A stretch of 64,000 bases of DNA, taken from positions 496,001 to 560,000 of the forward strand of contig NZ_QKWH01000001.1 of assembly GCF_003244315.1 (NCBI RefSeq). Reading direction: 5' to 3'. This document shows positions 5,658 through 33,451 of the stretch, in pieces (positions within the stretch are counted from its first letter, which is position 1; each line of letters begins with the position of its first letter). The notes beneath the pieces were generated by a model. It did not search any database. It was given only the letters and a program-made list of their open reading frames with translations, and was not told the origin of the DNA. A program made the translations under genes and the position numbers. Source of the DNA: Xylanimonas oleitrophica. GTDB lineage: Bacteria; Actinomycetota; Actinomycetes; Actinomycetales; Cellulomonadaceae.

Positions 5658-6719
5658 TCAGGCGGTCTTCTCGGCCTGCTTGGCGCGGGCGCGGGTGCGG
5701 GCGGAGTTGATGACGAGGTCGATGACGTCGCGGACGCGGTAGGTGTTGGCGCCGTTGCGGGCCTTCCCGGCCTCCAGGAGGCGGCCGGCGTGGTGCCACC
5801 AGCGGATGTTGTTCGCGAGGGTGTCGGCCTTGATGTCGATGCCGATCAGGCCGTGCACGGCGCGGGCCATCTCGGTGGCGGGCAGGAGCATGTCGGCGAC
5901 CTGGTCGAGGAGCCAGGCGCGGCGGTCGGCGAGGGCGTAGGTGGTGCCGCAGCCGGGGCAGGTGACGTCGGTGGCGCCGGGGCGGGCGTAGAGCTCGCCG
6001 TGGCAGGGTCGGACGGTCAGGTCGGTGACCTCGGTGCCGGCGACGATGCGGGTGGTGGTCTCCTCGACGTCGGCGGTGCAGGGTCCGGCGTACTGCATCT
6101 GCGGGGGCACGTCGATGGCGCGCTTCATGCGCTGGATGGCGTCGAGGAGTTCGCCGATGAGGTCGCCGCCGTCGGGCTGGGCGCGCATCCAGGCGATGTT
6201 GCCGGTGAGGAACCCGGCCAGGGCCTGGGGGGTGTTGAGGGGGCGGTACAGGCCGCGGCGCTTGGCGATGGTGTCGGCCACGGAGGTGAGGGTGATCAGG
6301 AGGTCCCAGCGCGCTTCGGACGGGGTGTACCGGTAGGGCAGGTGGGTGGCGCCTTCGGTGCCGGGCACGGTGTGGCCGTGCTCGTCCTTCTCGGAGGCGT
6401 CGACGGTCTGCCCGTGGGCGATGCGGTCTTCGGCGTCGGCCAGGAGTCCTGGTCGGGTCTGGGGCAGGCCGGTGCGGCGCAGGGGGTTGAGGTCGGGGTG
6501 GCCGATGCGGCGCCGCTCAGTCTTGGGCAGGTCGCAGAGCTCGCAGTGCTCGTGGTGGGGCTTGCTGGGGTGGGTGAGGACGGCGGGGTCGGGTTCGGGG
6601 GTGTCGGCGAGGGCGGTGAGGAGGGTGGTGAGGCGGGTGCCGCACTCGGCGCAGACGTAGCAGGTGTCCTCGACGTCGCGGCCGCACTCGAGGGTGCAGG
6701 GCTGCATGTTCCGGGTCAC
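5658..6719 (-). CDS. zinc-ribbon/HTH phage protein, unknown
   Basis: 353 residues from GTG 6719 (a 4-nt GTGA overlap with the upstream stop supports it; ATG 6707 is an alternative). The N-terminus has CTLEC, CYVCAEC and CELC pairs (zinc ribbons), the middle is helical, another ribbon (CPGCG) follows near residue 265, and the C-terminus (ADTLANNIRWWHHAGRL) resembles a winged-helix. Homologues in actinophages are unnamed. Probably a nucleic-acid-binding protein. Confidence 0.7.
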   Translation of the reverse strand: MTRNMQPCTLECGRDVEDTCYVCAECGTRLTTLLTALADTPEPDPAVLTHPSKPHHEHCELCDLPKTERRRIGHPDLNPLRRTGLPQTRPGLLADAEDRIAHGQTVDASEKDEHGHTVPGTEGATHLPYRYTPSEARWDLLITLTSVADTIAKRRGLYRPLNTPQALAGFLTGNIAWMRAQPDGGDLIGELLDAIQRMKRAIDVPPQMQYAGPCTADVEETTTRIVAGTEVTDLTVRPCHGELYARPGATDVTCPGCGTTYALADRRAWLLDQVADMLLPATEMARAVHGLIGIDIKADTLANNIRWWHHAGRLLEAGKARNGANTYRVRDVIDLVINSARTRARAKQAEKTA

Positions 6720-12615: not shown

Positions 12616-13203
12616 TCAGTCCTTGCTCTCGGTGGTGATCCCGGCCGGGCACGGCTGGGCGAGACCCTCGGGCCAGGCGACCTTGGCCATGGCGTCGAGG
12701 TGGTTCTTGGGGAGCTCGTCGATCGGGCGGCCGAGGGCGCGGGCGCCCATGGCGGCCAGCACGAGCGCGTCGGCCTCGTCGTTGCCGGTGACGTCGACGT
12801 CGACGTAGCGGCGCACGACCGCGGCGAGCACGGTGTCCTTGCCGGCCGCGCCAGAGCCCGTGGCGTACTTGGCGCGGGCGGAGGGCGTGACGACGGCGAG
12901 CCGGTGGTCGTTGACGAGGAGGCGGTGGGCGAGCATCCACCACAGGCCAGCGCGCTCGGTGGCGTGCGGGCTCTTGGAGGCGTAGGCCAGGCCCTCGAGG
13001 ACGACGAGGTCGGTGTCGTCGGACACCCACGCCATGGCCTCGTCGACGATGTCGCGCAGGCGTGACCAGCGGGCCGGGTAGGTGTCGCCGGCGGGGCTGG
13101 TGCGGATGCGGTCAACCTGGGCGAGGTGGCCCGCGCGGGGGGCTGCCCAGACGACGGCGACGCCGGTGGAGGTCAGGGACAGGTCGAGGCCGACGACCTT
13201 CAT
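12616..13203 (-). CDS. RuvC-like Holliday-junction resolvase
   Basis: 195 residues with the RuvC/RNase-H fold motifs: GLDLSLTSTGVA (first catalytic Asp, residue 6), VVLEGLAYA (catalytic Glu near 69) and NDEADALVLAAMG (Asp pair near 145). Phage RuvC-like nucleases cut branched DNA to clear it before packaging, consistent with its place in the operon that leads toward terminase. Length fits the family. Confidence 0.88.
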   Translation of the reverse strand: MKVVGLDLSLTSTGVAVVWAAPRAGHLAQVDRIRTSPAGDTYPARWSRLRDIVDEAMAWVSDDTDLVVLEGLAYASKSPHATERAGLWWMLAHRLLVNDHRLAVVTPSARAKYATGSGAAGKDTVLAAVVRRYVDVDVTGNDEADALVLAAMGARALGRPIDELPKNHLDAMAKVAWPEGLAQPCPAGITTESKD

Positions 13204-13286
13204 GGCCGCCTGCGCTTCTGGTCCCAGGCGGCGTAGAGCGCGAGCACGGCGAGCATCAGGGCGCCGGCCCAGGTCGCGGTGCTCAT
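13200..13286 (-). CDS. 28-residue single-TM peptide
   Basis: Read directly, ATG 13286: MSTATWAGALMLAVLALYAA then a charged tail (WDQKRRRP). Exact ATGA overlaps with both neighbours support expression. Possibly a small membrane effector; unknown. Confidence 0.5.
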   Translation of the reverse strand: MSTATWAGALMLAVLALYAAWDQKRRRP

Positions 13287-13528
13287 GCGGCCTGCCGGGG
13301 TCGGCGGCTCAGGCGCGGGTTGGTGACGCCGGCGCGTGCGAGGATCCTCTGGACGCCCGGGCCGGACAGGTGCGCGGCCTGCGCGATGGCCTCTCGGGAG
13401 TAGCCCTCGGCGTGGGCGCGGATGACGTGGTGGTCGCGCACGGCGCGCGAGTGCCGCAGCTTGGTGGTGTCGCTGTCGACGGTGGAGGCTGCCTGGTGCA
13501 GGTCGTCGAGTGCGGTTCGTGCGGCCAT
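13283..13528 (-). CDS. small HTH protein heading the late-middle operon
   Basis: 81 residues; GYSREAIAQAAHLSGPGVQRILARAG is a helix-turn-helix (residues about 46-70). First gene of a roughly 12-kb chain of overlapping leftward genes. The ATG at 13528 is only 7 nt from the -10 box, so the message is probably leaderless. Possible regulator of the operon. Confidence 0.65.
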   Translation of the reverse strand: MAARTALDDLHQAASTVDSDTTKLRHSRAVRDHHVIRAHAEGYSREAIAQAAHLSGPGVQRILARAGVTNPRLSRRPRQAA

Positions 13529-13564
13529 GTGCCCCACATTACTGCATGTTCCCGAATGTTGGTA
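13529..13564 (-). promoter_or_regulatory. operon promoter with operator in the spacer
   Basis: Minus strand: TACCAA (13559-13564), 17 bp, TAATGT (13536-13541), 7 nt, ATG. The + strand reads CCCGAATGTTGG at 13551-13562. The arrangement CAACATTCGG-N11-GTAATGT is the same as at 21,024-21,052. Confidence 0.65.
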
Positions 13565-13757
13565 CCCCATTTCACCCGCTGTCGAGGTGACACGTTCCGA
13601 TTTGTTGCGTTACGTTCAGGGCATGCACCGGCTGATCAGGCCGCGTCCACCACCATGTCGTGGACGCGACAGACGCAACTCAATCGAATGGCACCACCAG
13701 GCCTGCGCGCGCACCCCTTGGGGCAGGCCGAAGCGTTCGCCGCGCCCGGAACGAACC

Positions 13758-13804
13758 GAGGCCCGAGACCCGCAGCAATGAAGCTCAACGGAGTCTCGGG
13801 CCTC
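13758..13804 (-). terminator. probable terminator after the SOS-box gene
   Basis: Perfect 12-bp inverted repeat (GAGGCCCGAGAC at 13758-13769, complement at 13793-13804) with a 23-nt loop, 28 nt after the stop of the gene at 13832. The rest of 13,529-13,831 shows only the promoter described above and no convincing gene. Confidence 0.55.
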
Positions 13805-13831
13805 TGTCGTGCCCTGGGGCTGGTTTCGGCT

Positions 13832-14173
13832 CTACGAGAGCGACATCCGGTCGTCGCACGTCGTGCCCATGAGCGCCTCGATGGCCCGGATGCGGGCCAG
13901 CTCTGGGTTGTCGTTCGCGGTCAGGGCGAGCATGGCCACGGCGATGCGCCGCTGGTAGTCCGCTACAGTCAGCGGCTGGAACACGGACGTCACAGAGCGA
14001 CTGCTGACATCATTGTGTGACACTGGCAGTTGCCTTCCTTCGGGAGTGGTTTTCAGCGGCCCGTACCCCTCGTCTTCTTGGCCGGAGTCTGTGGGGTGCG
14101 GGCCGTTTTCTGTCCTTCTGGTGGAGGGATCGTATGTCGGGTCGGGGGTGCTGTTGGCGTGTCCCTTCGTCAT
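13832..14173 (-). CDS. phage protein behind an SOS box, unknown
   Basis: 113 residues. The first 50 are polar and Pro/Thr-rich; the C-terminal half (LTVADYQRRIAVAMLALTAN, ELARIRAIEALMG) is a helical domain that looks genuine. A LexA-type palindrome lies 6 nt before the ATG at 14173. Transcribed alone between two terminators. Start is uncertain because the N-terminus has low complexity. Confidence 0.5.
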   Translation of the reverse strand: MTKGHANSTPDPTYDPSTRRTENGPHPTDSGQEDEGYGPLKTTPEGRQLPVSHNDVSSRSVTSVFQPLTVADYQRRIAVAMLALTANDNPELARIRAIEALMGTTCDDRMSLS

Positions 14174-14418
14174 GGCGTGTCGAACACATGTTCGAACGAG
14201 CAGGTGACACGCGACACTGTAGAGCCCGGTGCAGCGTCTGTCCTGGTCACCCGCCCGGGGGTCTTCCCGCAGGTCCCGGCCGTGACCGGAACGTTTTCAC
14301 CCACTGAGGGCCGAGAAGTGCAGCAGTTGCCGCCCCGGCGGGGTCGGCAGGTGCCGCCCCTGCACCTGCTGGTGCCTGACGGGTCGGGCACGGTGTTCGG
14401 CGGCCGTTCGCGCCTCAT
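14170..14418 (-). CDS. doubtful 82-residue Cys/Arg-rich ORF
   Basis: ATG 14418 to a TGA overlapping the next ATG by 4 nt, as in the true gene chains. The composition (repeated CRGGTC, GGNCC) is not protein-like, and the SOS box lies inside it. Apart from this ORF, 14,174-14,515 shows no gene. Confidence 0.2.
   Translation of the reverse strand: MRRERPPNTVPDPSGTSRCRGGTCRPRRGGNCCTSRPSVGENVPVTAGTCGKTPGRVTRTDAAPGSTVSRVTCSFEHVFDTP
14180..14195 (-). promoter_or_regulatory. LexA/SOS box
   Basis: TCGAACACATGTTCGA (+ strand) is an exact match to the actinobacterial SOS-box pattern TCGAAC-N4-GTTCGA. It lies immediately before the ATG at 14173, with a possible -10 TACAGT about 20 nt further upstream on the minus strand. 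Bound LexA would block this gene; DNA damage would release it. Confidence 0.75.
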
Positions 14419-14515
14419 GACGCGTCTCCTGTCCTGTCCGCGGTCCGCCCTGCTGCGGCCCGCGCCCGGCACTGTGCCGGTACCCCCCTGAATCTGCGAG
14501 TCGCAGCGGGTGAAA

Positions 14516-14577
14516 CAGCGGGTGAAGAGCATTCGGGGACACCTCGGGGGCGCCGTCCGGCCGCTCTTCACCCGCTG
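14516..14577 (-). terminator. terminator after the WhiB gene
   Basis: Perfect 15-bp inverted repeat (CAGCGGGTGAAGAGC at 14516-14530, complement at 14563-14577), 32-nt loop, six bases after the whiB-like stop and followed by TTTCACC on the transcribed strand. The half CAGCGGGTGAA is also repeated directly at 14504-14514. Confidence 0.65.
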
Positions 14578-14582
14578 CCGGG

Positions 14583-14915
14583 TCACGCCGCCACGAGCTC
14601 CTCGCCGTCGGCGGGGCGCCGCGCGCCTGCCGGCGGGTTCTTCCACATCCGCTCTCGCTCGCGCCGCGTGGTGCCGCCGTACACGCCGTCGCGCTCACCG
14701 CGGGTCAGGCCGACGGTCAGGCACGCCTCCCGCACCGGGCACTGAGCGCAGACCTGCTTGGCCGCCCGCGAGGACCCGCCCTGCTCGGGGAAGAACGCGT
14801 CAGGGTCGGTCTGGGAGCACAACGCCTGCGCCTGCTCGTCGAACGTCAGCCACCGGCGGGGCGTGAAGCCCTCCGGCCACACGTCCATCCGCGGCAGCGT
14901 GCCCGGCTGGCTCAC
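14583..14915 (-). CDS. phage-encoded WhiB-family iron-sulfur regulator
   Basis: 110 residues from GTG 14915, 4-nt overlap with the methyltransferase stop. It has the four WhiB cysteines (ALCSQTD, then QVCAQCPVREAC), the DPDAFFPE element, the turn GVYGGTT and a basic RRERERMWK tail. WhiB proteins bind a [4Fe-4S] cluster and sigma factor region 4; phage versions can take over or silence host WhiB functions. Last gene of the second operon. Confidence 0.9.
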   Translation of the reverse strand: MSQPGTLPRMDVWPEGFTPRRWLTFDEQAQALCSQTDPDAFFPEQGGSSRAAKQVCAQCPVREACLTVGLTRGERDGVYGGTTRRERERMWKNPPAGARRPADGEELVAA

Positions 14916-16561
14916 GCGGCCACCGCCTCGCCAGTGATGGCCTCGACCACGCACGCGATGAGGTCGCGCGCGGCCGGGGGCGTCACGGCGTTGCCGCTCA
15001 GCTTCACCTGCTCGCGCCGGTTGCCGACCATGACGTAGTCGCCGGGGAAGGCCATGGCGCGCTTGATCTCGTCGGGCTCGAGCATGCGGAACCGGACGTC
15101 CTCGACTTCGATGGTGGGCCGCTCCGCCTGCAGCACCGACTGGTGGCCGGCGGTGGTGACGGTGCGCACGGGCTCGGACGCGGGCGTGGTCATCTCGGCG
15201 CCGCCGCCGTTGTTCCGGTGGATCAGCGCGTAGGCCTCCCGGGTGAGCATGGTCGGCATGGGGCCCACGGTCGGACGGGCGTCCTCGTTCCACGTGCCGC
15301 CGGACGGGACGACGAGCCCGTGGTGGTTCCCCGAGGCGGTGACAGTCGCCAGCGCCTCGGACGCCGGCCGGGCCACGGACCCGCCACCACGGAGCTCGGC
15401 GAGGAACGGCGGGAACGCGAAGCCCGTCTCGGTGCGGGTCGTCATCGTGCGCATGGCCTCGGCGGCGATGCGCGCCTCCTTGCCCTCGCGGCCCTCGACA
15501 GGCACCGCCAGCGGGGGCAGGGCGATGCCCTTGGACTCGCGGGTGTGCATGGTCTGCGTCGGCTCGGACAGCGGCCACGCCCGGTAGTAGGAGTTCGGGT
15601 CGCCGTGGCGCGGGTGCCGCGGGTCGGCGGCGTCGTAGGGGTTGCCGCCGTTCTCGACCAGCAGGGGCGCCCAGTAGCGCTCGATGCCGACCTGGATGCG
15701 GCGCATGGTCTTCTCCGCCAACGGCTTGTCCCGGTCGCCGATGCGCTGGCCGGGGTTGGACCAGTCGATGATCGAGCTCGCGGGCATCCAGTACGGCTCG
15801 ACAACCTCGTTGCGGCACGAGCTCGACGGGCACCGGTAGAGGTACTGGGAGCGGTACCGGCCGGGCCGGGTCTGCCCGTCGCCCCTCTTCCACCACTGCA
15901 TGGCCTCGACGGTGGTCTCGCAGCGCGGGCACCACGCCTTCGGCCGCTGCATGCGCTCGAAGTCCGGGGCGCGCTCGCCCTCCTTCGTGAACGCGATGTA
16001 CACCCGGTCGCGCGACTGCGGGGCCGGCAGGCCCATCGCGGAGGCGTGCATGGAGTTCAGGCTGATGATGCGGTGCCGGTAGCCCATGGAGTGCATGGCG
16101 CCGAGCCACGCCTGGAACAGGCCGCCGCGGGTCCCGGTCGGGCTCGACCAGTCGACGACCTCGACGACGTTCTCCACGAGCACGGCGCGGTAGTCGTGTG
16201 CCTCGGTGAACCGCACGACGTCCCACATGGTCGCGCGCGAGCGCTCGGCCGCTGCGTCGGGCAGCACGTCGCCGAACAGGTCCGGCTGGATCGGCGCGGC
16301 CTTGCGGCCCTTGGCTCGGGAGTGGTTCGTGCACTCGGGGGACGCCCACAGCATGTCGGTGTGCGGCACGTAGCGGGGGTCCGTCTGCGAGATGTCGGCC
16401 TGCAGGTGGTCGACGTCGGGGTGGTTCGTGTTGTGGGTCTCGATGGCCTTGTCCCAGTGGTTCGCGGCCAGGCGCACCTGCACACCGGGCACCGAGACGG
16501 CTCCGGTGGAGCTGCCGCCGGCGCCGCAGAACAGGTCGGTCATCGTGAGGTTCGCGGTCAT
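14912..16561 (-). CDS. DNA (cytosine-5)-methyltransferase
   Basis: 549 residues. Motif I DLFCGAGGSSTG (9-20), motif IV SPECTNHS with the catalytic Cys at residue 77 (SPEC instead of the usual PPC), motif VI ENV (130-132), motif VIII QSRDRVY, and C-terminal motifs IX-X (EIKRAMAFPGDY, KLSGNAVTPPAAR). A CPRC...CPSSSC zinc-finger-like insertion lies in the middle. Such orphan enzymes protect phage DNA from host restriction. A stub of a second methyltransferase lies just upstream. Confidence 0.9.
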   Translation of the reverse strand: MTANLTMTDLFCGAGGSSTGAVSVPGVQVRLAANHWDKAIETHNTNHPDVDHLQADISQTDPRYVPHTDMLWASPECTNHSRAKGRKAAPIQPDLFGDVLPDAAAERSRATMWDVVRFTEAHDYRAVLVENVVEVVDWSSPTGTRGGLFQAWLGAMHSMGYRHRIISLNSMHASAMGLPAPQSRDRVYIAFTKEGERAPDFERMQRPKAWCPRCETTVEAMQWWKRGDGQTRPGRYRSQYLYRCPSSSCRNEVVEPYWMPASSIIDWSNPGQRIGDRDKPLAEKTMRRIQVGIERYWAPLLVENGGNPYDAADPRHPRHGDPNSYYRAWPLSEPTQTMHTRESKGIALPPLAVPVEGREGKEARIAAEAMRTMTTRTETGFAFPPFLAELRGGGSVARPASEALATVTASGNHHGLVVPSGGTWNEDARPTVGPMPTMLTREAYALIHRNNGGGAEMTTPASEPVRTVTTAGHQSVLQAERPTIEVEDVRFRMLEPDEIKRAMAFPGDYVMVGNRREQVKLSGNAVTPPAARDLIACVVEAITGEAVAA

Positions 16562-31495: not shown

Positions 31496-31900
31496 ATGCC
31501 CGAAGCAACCCCCGAGGGGCGCGCCCGCGCGCGCCACGCCGTAGACGCCGCGATCACCGAGAGGGGCGTCTCCCGCACCCGCGCCGCAGCGCTCGCCGGC
31601 GTCGCCGACGTCACCGTGCTCCGCTTCCTGAACGGCGATCAGTGGCCCCGCACCCAGCCACTGGCCAAGATCGAACGCTGGCTCGGCTGGCCCGTCGGCT
31701 CCATCAACCGCATCGCCGAGGGCGGCGCCGTCCCGGACAGCCCCGAGGCCGCCACCGAGTCAGGCCGCATCGCTCTGCCGGCCGCCGCCGCCGACTACCA
31801 AGACCTGACCGAGTCGGAGCTCGCCGAGGCGATCACCGCGGCTCACGCGACCTTCATGGAGCGGGCCCGCACGATCCGCGCGACGCGACCCCGCGCATGA
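31496..31900 (+). CDS. HTH protein, candidate prophage repressor
   Basis: 134 residues, the only rightward prophage gene. VSRTRAAALAGVADVTVLRF then LNGDQWPRTQPLAKIERWLG is an XRE-type HTH; the C-terminus is acidic-helical. It faces the early operon promoter and shares a bidirectional terminator with the integrase. A -10-like TACCCT (about 31,414) precedes it. Assignment as repressor of the TCACCGAAY operators is inference from position. Confidence 0.65.
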   Translation: MPEATPEGRARARHAVDAAITERGVSRTRAAALAGVADVTVLRFLNGDQWPRTQPLAKIERWLGWPVGSINRIAEGGAVPDSPEAATESGRIALPAAAADYQDLTESELAEAITAAHATFMERARTIRATRPRA

Positions 31901-31961: not shown

Positions 31962-33290
31962 TCAGTCGAGCGCGGCGGTCGCCTTGAGCAGCGCCGCCCG
32001 CGCGCGGTCCATGTCGGCGTGCAGGTACGCCTGCGTCGAGGCCAGGGACGCGTGGCCCATCATCGCGGTGATGACCTCCTCCGGCGTGCCCTCCGCGCGC
32101 AGGAGGTTCGCCGTCGTGTGCCGCATCTCGTGCCCGGTGTAGAGGCGGCCGGCCGGGTGGCGCGCGCCCGCCTGCTCCTGGATGGACCGCCAGGCATCGC
32201 CGTCGCCGTGCTTGTCCCACGGCAGACCGTCGGCGGGCCGCGCCCACACCAGCCCCAGCGGCGACGGCCCGGCGTCCCGCCACTCGAGCAGCGCCTCCTC
32301 CAGCTTCGGGGCCATGGGCAGCACGCGCTCGCCCGCGCGAGACTTCGGGCGCACCCAGTGCCACGTCAGGTGCGCCTGCCGTGCCTCGTACCCGTCCGGC
32401 ATGGCGAACCCCCGCGCCGGGCACGACGCCGCGCTCCTCTTCCCGCACGTCGGCGGCTGCGCCTTCTTGCAGCACCCGTGCTTGTAGGACAGGCGCTGCA
32501 TCTGCCAGGACACGAGCATCGTGTGGGCCTTGAAGTCGACGCGGTCCCACTCCATGCCCAGCGCCTCACCCTGACGCAGGCCGCCGTAGAACCCGGCCAG
32601 CCAGCGCGAGTAGTCCTCCCGCAGTGACGCGACCTTGAGGATCCGCCTGGCCTGGTCGAGGGGGATGTCCTTGCGGTCGTGCTTCGCCTTCTCCGGACGC
32701 GGCACCAGGAACACCCGCTGCGGCACCTGGTGCCCCTCGAGCGCCGCGGCCTTGCACAGCCGCATCAGGACCGACTGCGCGTACCCGGCGGTCGTCGTCG
32801 ACTTCCCGGCGTCGATGATCCGGCGCGTCAGGGTGCGCACGTCGGCCGGGGTGAGCTCGGCCAAGCGCCGCCCGCCGATCGTGGGCAAGATCCACTTGCG
32901 CACGATGGACGCGTCGGTGCGGTACGTGTTCGGCGTGACCCTGGTCTGGTAGATCGGCAGCCACGTCTCCGACCAGGCGTTGACGGTGGTGGAGGCGCGG
33001 ACGCCCGCCGTCGGCGCGCCGTGGGTCTCGACCTCGCGGCGCTTGACGCGCAGCTTGCGCTTCACCTCGGCCTCGGAGGAGCCGTAGACGCTGATGCGCC
33101 GGGGTGTGCCGTTCGCGGTGGTGCCGGCCATGAGGGCACCGCGCCAGTGGCCCTTGCAGGTGTGCGGTGGGCGCACCCGTGCGCGCTTGCCGGTCTCGTC
33201 GGTGACCCACTCCGAGGGCGGGCAGTCGGGGTGGTCGTGGATCGGGTAGACCGAGCCGGTCCCGTAGGCGACTCGACGCTCCTTGCTCAC
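31962..33290 (-). CDS. int: tyrosine-type phage integrase
   Basis: 442 residues from GTG 33290 with AAGGAG four bases upstream; the longer frame runs into the attachment site. N-terminal SAM-like core-binding domain, then the catalytic domain: Arg in GGLRQGEA (about 238), HEMRH box (about 388-391), MMGHASLASTQAYLH with the Tyr nucleophile (about 421). An unusual Cys-rich loop with five Cys (about 265-290) lies between the Arg and His boxes. It recombines at the adjacent tRNA-Pro sequence. Confidence 0.93.
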   Translation of the reverse strand: MSKERRVAYGTGSVYPIHDHPDCPPSEWVTDETGKRARVRPPHTCKGHWRGALMAGTTANGTPRRISVYGSSEAEVKRKLRVKRREVETHGAPTAGVRASTTVNAWSETWLPIYQTRVTPNTYRTDASIVRKWILPTIGGRRLAELTPADVRTLTRRIIDAGKSTTTAGYAQSVLMRLCKAAALEGHQVPQRVFLVPRPEKAKHDRKDIPLDQARRILKVASLREDYSRWLAGFYGGLRQGEALGMEWDRVDFKAHTMLVSWQMQRLSYKHGCCKKAQPPTCGKRSAASCPARGFAMPDGYEARQAHLTWHWVRPKSRAGERVLPMAPKLEEALLEWRDAGPSPLGLVWARPADGLPWDKHGDGDAWRSIQEQAGARHPAGRLYTGHEMRHTTANLLRAEGTPEEVITAMMGHASLASTQAYLHADMDRARAALLKATAALD

Positions 33291-33304
33291 TGTGCTCCTT
33301 CTGC

Positions 33305-33326
33305 AGCAATGTCCTGTAGCAATGTC
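33305..33326. repeat. 9-bp direct repeats by the integrase start
   Basis: AGCAATGTC occurs at 33305-33313 and 33318-33326 (13-bp period) between int and the attachment core; candidate integrase arm-binding sites. Confidence 0.4.
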
Positions 33327-33407
33327 ACCGTGCATATTGTGCCCTACTTGGGTACGAGGGCCGCATGAACGCGCGTCTCGCGCGGACCTACGTACAGTAA
33401 CATTTGG

Positions 33408-33451
<44 letters not shown>

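Follow-up and report, generated by a model that had tools for sequence, protein, structure and literature searches.

A candidate SOS-controlled small gene in an actinobacterial prophage, with its switch conserved and its product exchanged in two related prophages

A small gene of an actinobacterial prophage carries an exact LexA (SOS) box and is very probably under LexA control. In this respect the first-pass annotation, which had proposed an SOS box on a lone prophage gene, finds good support in the motif itself, in the comparison with sites of the host, and in conservation in three prophages. The function of the gene can be stated less firmly. The explanation developed below as a whole, namely that a small gene run by LexA gives rise, during the SOS response, to a protein that triggers prophage induction in an antirepressor-like manner, seems to us a reasonable prospect, if short of a probable one.

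The window, i.e. the whole 64-kb stretch of DNA that was analysed, corresponds to C11:496001-560000 of genome G000 (3.49 Mb). Its left half is part of a prophage, which is present as a 57,262-base IMG/VR record and extends, as calculated by offset, over approximately C11:472,030-529,290, with an end near the integrase at 31962-33434 of the window. The features considered in the following are:

13283-13570, minus strand: gene for a 95-aa HTH-like protein (weak HTH matches only), flanking the locus and used as synteny marker
13758-13804, minus strand: terminator-like hairpin just after the small gene, with a 12-pair stem and no T run
13832-14023, minus strand: candidate SOS-controlled small gene, 63 aa, GTG start (MSHNDVSSRSVTSVFQPLTVADYQRR...), delimited from codon-position GC, relatives and start-site conservation
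14033-14041, minus strand: Shine-Dalgarno sequence GAAGGAAGG, recognized from the sequence
14057-14105, minus strand: predicted mRNA leader hairpin with loop TCCGGCCAAGAAG, whose stem letters differ in the relatives in G033 and G050 while pairing is kept
14129-14134, minus strand: TACGAT, putative -10 element, exactly 45 nt after the box in three loci
14180-14195, minus strand: LexA (SOS) box TCGAACATGTGTTCGA, exact palindrome TCGAAC-N4-GTTCGA
14583-14915, minus strand: WhiB-like gene, flanking the locus and used as synteny marker
31496-31900, plus strand: gene for a 134-aa HTH protein, putative immunity repressor, without S24 domain

The box had been described as an exact instance of the actinobacterial LexA pattern, and this was confirmed: it is the only exact match to TCGAAC-N4-GTTCGA in the window, and no match was found in 100 dinucleotide shuffles. 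In the whole genome the full palindrome occurs at three places, and its core, CGAAC-N4-GTTCG, is exact at seven, this site included. Core sites adjoin recA (Pfam RecA) and lexA (Pfam LexA_DNA_bind and Peptidase_S24); further ones are found at a radical-SAM gene and at a HEPN_SAV_6107 gene followed by a gene for a DinB-like polymerase (named by inspection), and one precedes an ORF without Pfam match which we take to be ImuA-like. A core site within an NRPS-like coding sequence, recognized as such by inspection, was regarded as due to chance. The box also fits fully the LexA ChIP motif of the Streptomyces venezuelae SOS regulon, given as tCGAAC-N4-GNNCGa in the accessible part of that report (PMC9380542). 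The presence of the core at the host recA and lexA, together with this agreement, identifies the motif of the box as the SOS motif of the host, so that LexA would be expected to bind there.

Conservation points in the same direction. Two related prophages, in the genomes G033 and G050, were available for comparison, and each of the stretches searched (the window, 40 kb of G033 and 38 kb of G050) contains one TCGAAC-N4-GTTCGA, at the orthologous place. Among the three loci all 12 positions of the box arms and all 6 of TACGAT are identical, while pairwise identity is 26, 30 and 35 of 100 in the 100 nt upstream of the box and 18-20 of 45 in the gap itself. Since the same switch stands at the same place in two related prophages, the box probably serves to tell the virus of the host's trouble. 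The core is found 16 times in the G033 genome and 12 times in that of G050. A second, core-only place in G050 (ACGAACGGGCGTTCGT, C1:1780684), 24 kb left of the SOS locus, was discounted because the outer T and A are absent; it lies perhaps within the G050 prophage, and in no open frame of more than 150 codons.

The relationship of the three prophages extends beyond the box. An integrase (46-47% identical to that of the window prophage), a 134-aa HTH protein adjoining it, YqaJ, RecT, a DNA methylase and WhiB are common to all three, as are the replication genes, which are more fragmentary in G033. On the minus strand the order at the three loci is WhiB gene, gene B (in G033 and G050 only, see below), box, 45 nt, TACGAT, leader hairpin, Shine-Dalgarno sequence, small gene, and small HTH-like gene, the last being only 32% identical in G033, where it was missed by tblastn.

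Some further observations concern the surroundings of the locus. The C-5 DNA methylase (window 14912-16561, minus strand) is matched by 264 phage records, 68 of them at 60-80% identity, mainly from phages of Gordonia, Mycobacterium and Arthrobacter. Homology to the methylase stops in G033 at L021:2527-3159 (minus strand), and its last 17 residues recur at the end of a 210-aa ORF, HNH endonuclease-like by inspection, as if a homing-type gene had entered the methylase gene. A 353-aa PHROG 908 protein (window 5658-6719, minus strand) is 66-68% identical in G033 and G050 and is among the better-kept genes of the region. Both relatives have a tRNA-Gln (TTG) gene 14-15 kb left of the box (L243:3905-3976 and L245:1392-1465, minus strand); none was found within the window.

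The gene itself had been read as coding for 113 residues, from a start 6 nt after the box. That start, the ATG at 14173, is probably wrong, as it is supported neither by codon-position GC, nor by the alignment of the relatives, nor by the stops upstream of the latter. In the 113-codon reading, GC at the three codon positions is 0.58/0.58/0.70 over the first 50 codons vs 0.62/0.48/0.87 over the last 63. The accepted relatives from G033 and G050 align only to residues 49-111 and 42-110, respectively. Neither of them can start near the box, its frame being closed by a stop codon 42 or 36 nt ahead of the corresponding start. In the window the frame is open back beyond the box, so that there no stop excludes the long ORF. 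Each of the three loci has a Shine-Dalgarno-like run and, 9-10 nt further on, [G/T]TG TCA CAC; from codon-position GC and comparison we are confident that the true start is the GTG at 14023, with the box 156 nt upstream, and that the product has 63 residues rather than 113. The start in G050 is less certain, because its TTG has an in-frame ATG 24 nt ahead of it. Neither the 113-aa nor the 63-aa reading gave a match to a Pfam or PHROG family, and the predicted structure of the 63-aa protein, a two-helix hairpin with a pLDDT of 65, says little.

The isolation of the gene by terminators, which had likewise been suggested, holds in part. Its downstream end is plausibly terminated, given the strong hairpin at 13758-13804 (z -4.44 for the fold of 13740-13835). 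No upstream terminator emerged: a simple scan of 13500-14650 found none on the strand of the gene, and two weak matches on the plus strand against 0.7 expected in shuffles; the same scan also passed over the long-looped hairpin at 13758-13804, in which a T run is missing. A cysteine/arginine-rich ORF with a Shine-Dalgarno sequence (window 14170-14420, minus strand) was weighed as a possible coupled partner and discarded on account of its odd composition; it passes through the LexA box, ends in an ATGA overlapping the ATG at 14173, and is probably due to chance.

The cassette shared by the three loci is composed of the box, a gap of exactly 45 nt, TACGAT, the leader hairpin, the Shine-Dalgarno sequence and then [G/T]TGTCACAC. 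TACGAT is the only -10-like element common to all three, and if it marks the promoter, as we infer, the box would be at about -65. Of the host sites, those at recA and lexA have a TAnnnT 2 and 12 nt downstream of the 14-base core; the present gene differs from these host SOS genes in being a phage gene and in the placement of its box with respect to the putative -10. No TAnnnT lies within 96 nt downstream of the remaining three, and the host boxes are therefore no clean yardstick for the spacing. A simple sigma-70 scan detected no promoter at the locus.

Each leader has one main hairpin, with z-scores of -1.18 in the window and of -2.96 and -2.15 in the relatives, and the loop motif TCC[C/G]GC[C/T]AAGAAG is common to the three loci. 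From an alignment of five leaders, RNAalifold predicted 12 pairs, 4 of them changed on both sides, with an unfavourable covariation term (+1.72). A conserved leader structure is likely on these data. Three Rfam matches were rejected, all being far below the gathering scores.

What follows the cassette is not the same in the three prophages. In G033 and G050 it drives a gene, here called gene A, listed with 104 and 112 aa and 44% identical between the two. The window's protein is related to the product of gene B (62-63 aa; identity 34 and 29%), a gene which in both genomes sits upstream of the box with a TACGAT and a leader of its own. In the window a B-type body stands behind the switch, leader and MSH start of the A type. 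The gene B leader (L021:1676-1785 and L023:1676-1790, minus strand) is predicted to form a very stable hairpin (z about -5), and a palindrome, TTCACG-N4-CGTGAA, is found 8 nt before the TACGAT of gene B, exact in G050 and with one mismatch in G033. One more one-mismatch site occurs in G033, at position 13011 of the joined stretch; no repeated operator of this type was seen in either genome. The loop of the gene B leader, CTTGGCGGA, is complementary to that of the SOS leader, and 9 bases can pair in G033 as well as in G050. This loop-loop pairing was matched by 37 and 45 of 5000 shuffles and, in terms of duplex energy, by 5 and 29 of 1000, the tests for the two genomes not being independent and the pairing having been noticed after the fact. 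Weak matches of genes A and B (RimM, E 0.0057; phrog_28759, E 0.058; Putative_PNPOx_2, E 0.12) were ignored, and the structure model of gene A, with a pLDDT of 48, was too poor for use.

The relatives were found by searching 149 genomes (that of the window included) with the 113-aa query, which gave a match at E up to 0.1 in 27 of them; the presence of a box was considered in four of the 27, namely the window's own genome, G033, G050 and G115. The matches in G033 (5e-8) and G050 (0.0015) were accepted on the grounds of the small frame, synteny and the box. That in G115 (8.9e-4), although better than the one in G050, was dropped, as it falls in an 844-aa frame at a locus without box. Phage records contained no match to the 113-aa protein, gene A or gene B, nor did a search of them at the DNA level give any. 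Among viral contigs the 113-aa query was recovered in 1 of 32 candidate stretches, from the same prophage, and among genome contigs in none of 66 candidates. The succession of box, gap and TACGAT is present in 4 of 221 genomes of the family; the fourth, G004 (L068), was taken as a chance occurrence, having G...C as outer letters and lacking the loop motif. A profile of gene A matched weakly in 3 of 396 genomes of the order, none with a box at the locus, and the leader pattern in 1 of 394 genomes of the class, the window's own; both sets are samples, into which G033 and G050, carriers of gene A and of the leader, were evidently not drawn.

Forty-five stretches of viral contigs contained the leader pattern, and two of them are the window's prophage and that of G033; seven of the other 43 have a GC content above 0.55, and these were read as chance, having no box upstream. 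The pattern Box-N35-55-TACGAT occurs in 28 viral stretches, where L051 (the window's own prophage) and L053 (that of G033) represent this locus. Gene B was found by its profile in 2 of 50 viral candidates, again the own prophage and that of G033, the small HTH-like gene in the own prophage only, and gene A of G050 gave no match in viral contigs. Two viral stretches of another kind were noted among the 20 with a GC content of at least 0.60, from at least 120 matches listed: at L136:7468-7483 and L142:462-477 a LexA box overlaps TAGTAT, and an ORF of 53 or 55 aa, both starting with MGQ, begins 59 nt after it. Judging from such arrangements, SOS-driven tiny genes may be recurrent in GC-rich prophages of this kind. 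On a further viral contig a LexA box (L095:2073-2088) lies 116 nt upstream of an ORF that by inspection is WhiB-like.

How the locus may be connected with induction depends on the repressor. From its place and orientation, the 134-aa protein at 31496, for which HTH is the sole domain matched, would be the immunity repressor. Its counterparts in the G033 and G050 prophages, also of 134 aa and 52 and 55% identical to it, had no Pfam match at all. Within none of the three prophages was there a match to Peptidase_S24, or to Peptidase_M78 (ImmA) at E up to 0.1. Cleavage of the lambda type and of the ImmA type is therefore unlikely, and a small LexA-controlled product from outside the immunity region becomes the obvious link to DNA damage. 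The small gene is 17 kb from the gene at 31496, after the replication genes, and outside what appears to be the immunity region.

On this basis the following course of events can be envisaged. The LexA operator would set the small phage gene (63 aa) under the SOS response of the host, and in the lysogen LexA would hold the transcript low. Upon DNA damage RecA would make LexA cleave itself, the transcript would rise, and the small, presumably helical protein would bring about induction of the prophage, the putative repressor of which lacks any domain cleavable by way of RecA. The most likely route would be neutralization of the putative repressor by the 63-aa protein, according to the logic of an antirepressor. 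That the small protein triggers induction by antirepression is possible rather than probable, and both the antirepressor action and the damage-inducibility of the prophage are presumed here. The idea fits the anatomy of the prophage: the putative repressor is short and has no S24 domain, the locus follows the replication genes and is not part of the presumed immunity region, and the product is small. The main evidence to the contrary is that the SOS-driven product has been exchanged while the putative repressors are still 52-55% identical.

The exchange also bears on a different reading, in which the SOS operator is real and the gene is an accessory one, with a role other than antirepression (for example in host replication, division or the SOS response) and a cargo swapped between phages. 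Conservation of the box, spacing, leader and MSH start, against a coding part that differs between the window and G033/G050, argues for it, and so does the occurrence in other GC-rich viral contigs of a box near quite different ORFs (L136, L142, L095). An accessory role, however, leaves damage sensing unexplained in prophages with no S24 or M78 match, if the prophage is damage-inducible at all, and we consider it a serious, if somewhat doubtful, alternative to antirepression. It is very improbable, on the other hand, that the box merely resembles the LexA motif and is unused by LexA, serving another regulator or having no function: its distance of 45 nt from the putative -10, unlike that at the host recA and lexA, would suit such a view, but both arms are preserved letter for letter in three diverged prophages, and the core is present at the host recA and lexA.

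The leader might matter in its own right. A hairpin kept in three loci despite changed stem letters, with a common loop for which a 9-base pairing with the gene B leader is possible in G033 and G050, is what would be seen if the structured leader RNA were, wholly or partly, the working product, its loop acting in trans or controlling its own translation. This is decidedly unlikely, considering that no gene of the window is preceded by a B-type loop motif, that the fold of its leader is weak (z -1.18), that only three loci are concerned and the pairing was a post hoc observation, and that the covariation term over the five leaders (+1.72) is net unfavourable. A more elaborate proposal combines several of these elements in a portable SOS cassette (box, 45 nt, -10 and structured leader) with an exchangeable coding part, in which LexA, by itself, together with a phage factor or as an activator, would exert its effect from about -65 rather than simply cover the promoter, and the leader hairpin would be an RNA switch pairing loop to loop with the gene B leader in the relatives; we regard this proposal as unlikely.

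For the antirepressor reading there are known systems with which the locus can be compared. The Tum protein of coliphage 186 is a LexA-controlled antirepressor, and the present locus is like it in offering a candidate SOS-controlled small induction gene outside the immunity region; it differs in matching no PHROG or Pfam family, and is set beside Tum by description. In the Gifsy prophages of Salmonella, as described in the portion of the report accessible to us, the LexA box is not part of the immunity region but follows the replication genes; terminator-like palindromes precede it, and the locus under its control comprises a dinI homologue and a small antirepressor gene with a GUG start (PMC3121763). 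Like the loci of GftA, GfoA and GfhA, the present one has its LexA box at a distance from the immunity region, behind the replication genes, and a small product with a non-ATG start; the prophage repressor, shown in Gifsy not to be cleaved, is comparable here in that the putative repressor lacks an S24 domain. As far as that portion of the report goes, two differences are apparent (PMC3121763): the Gifsy LexA box stands before a dinI homologue adjoining the antirepressor gene, whereas here the gene is alone; and the distances of the box here, 156 nt to the start codon and 45 nt to the putative -10, as well as the structured leader, set the locus apart. Membership in an antirepressor family of the Gifsy or Tum type was not found, neither the 113-aa nor the 63-aa reading belonging to any PHROG or Pfam family. 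As no family is recognized, the locus cannot be filed in a known antirepressor family, and would only work like a member of one.

A search of the mostly open-access literature retrieved no report of such an arrangement in actinobacterial prophages, and nothing on damage sensing by actinobacterial prophages without cleavable repressors. The locus described here represents a defined, small and testable candidate trigger for the sensing of damage by a prophage, and, because two relatives keep the switch and exchange the product, the roles of switch, leader and protein would be separable.
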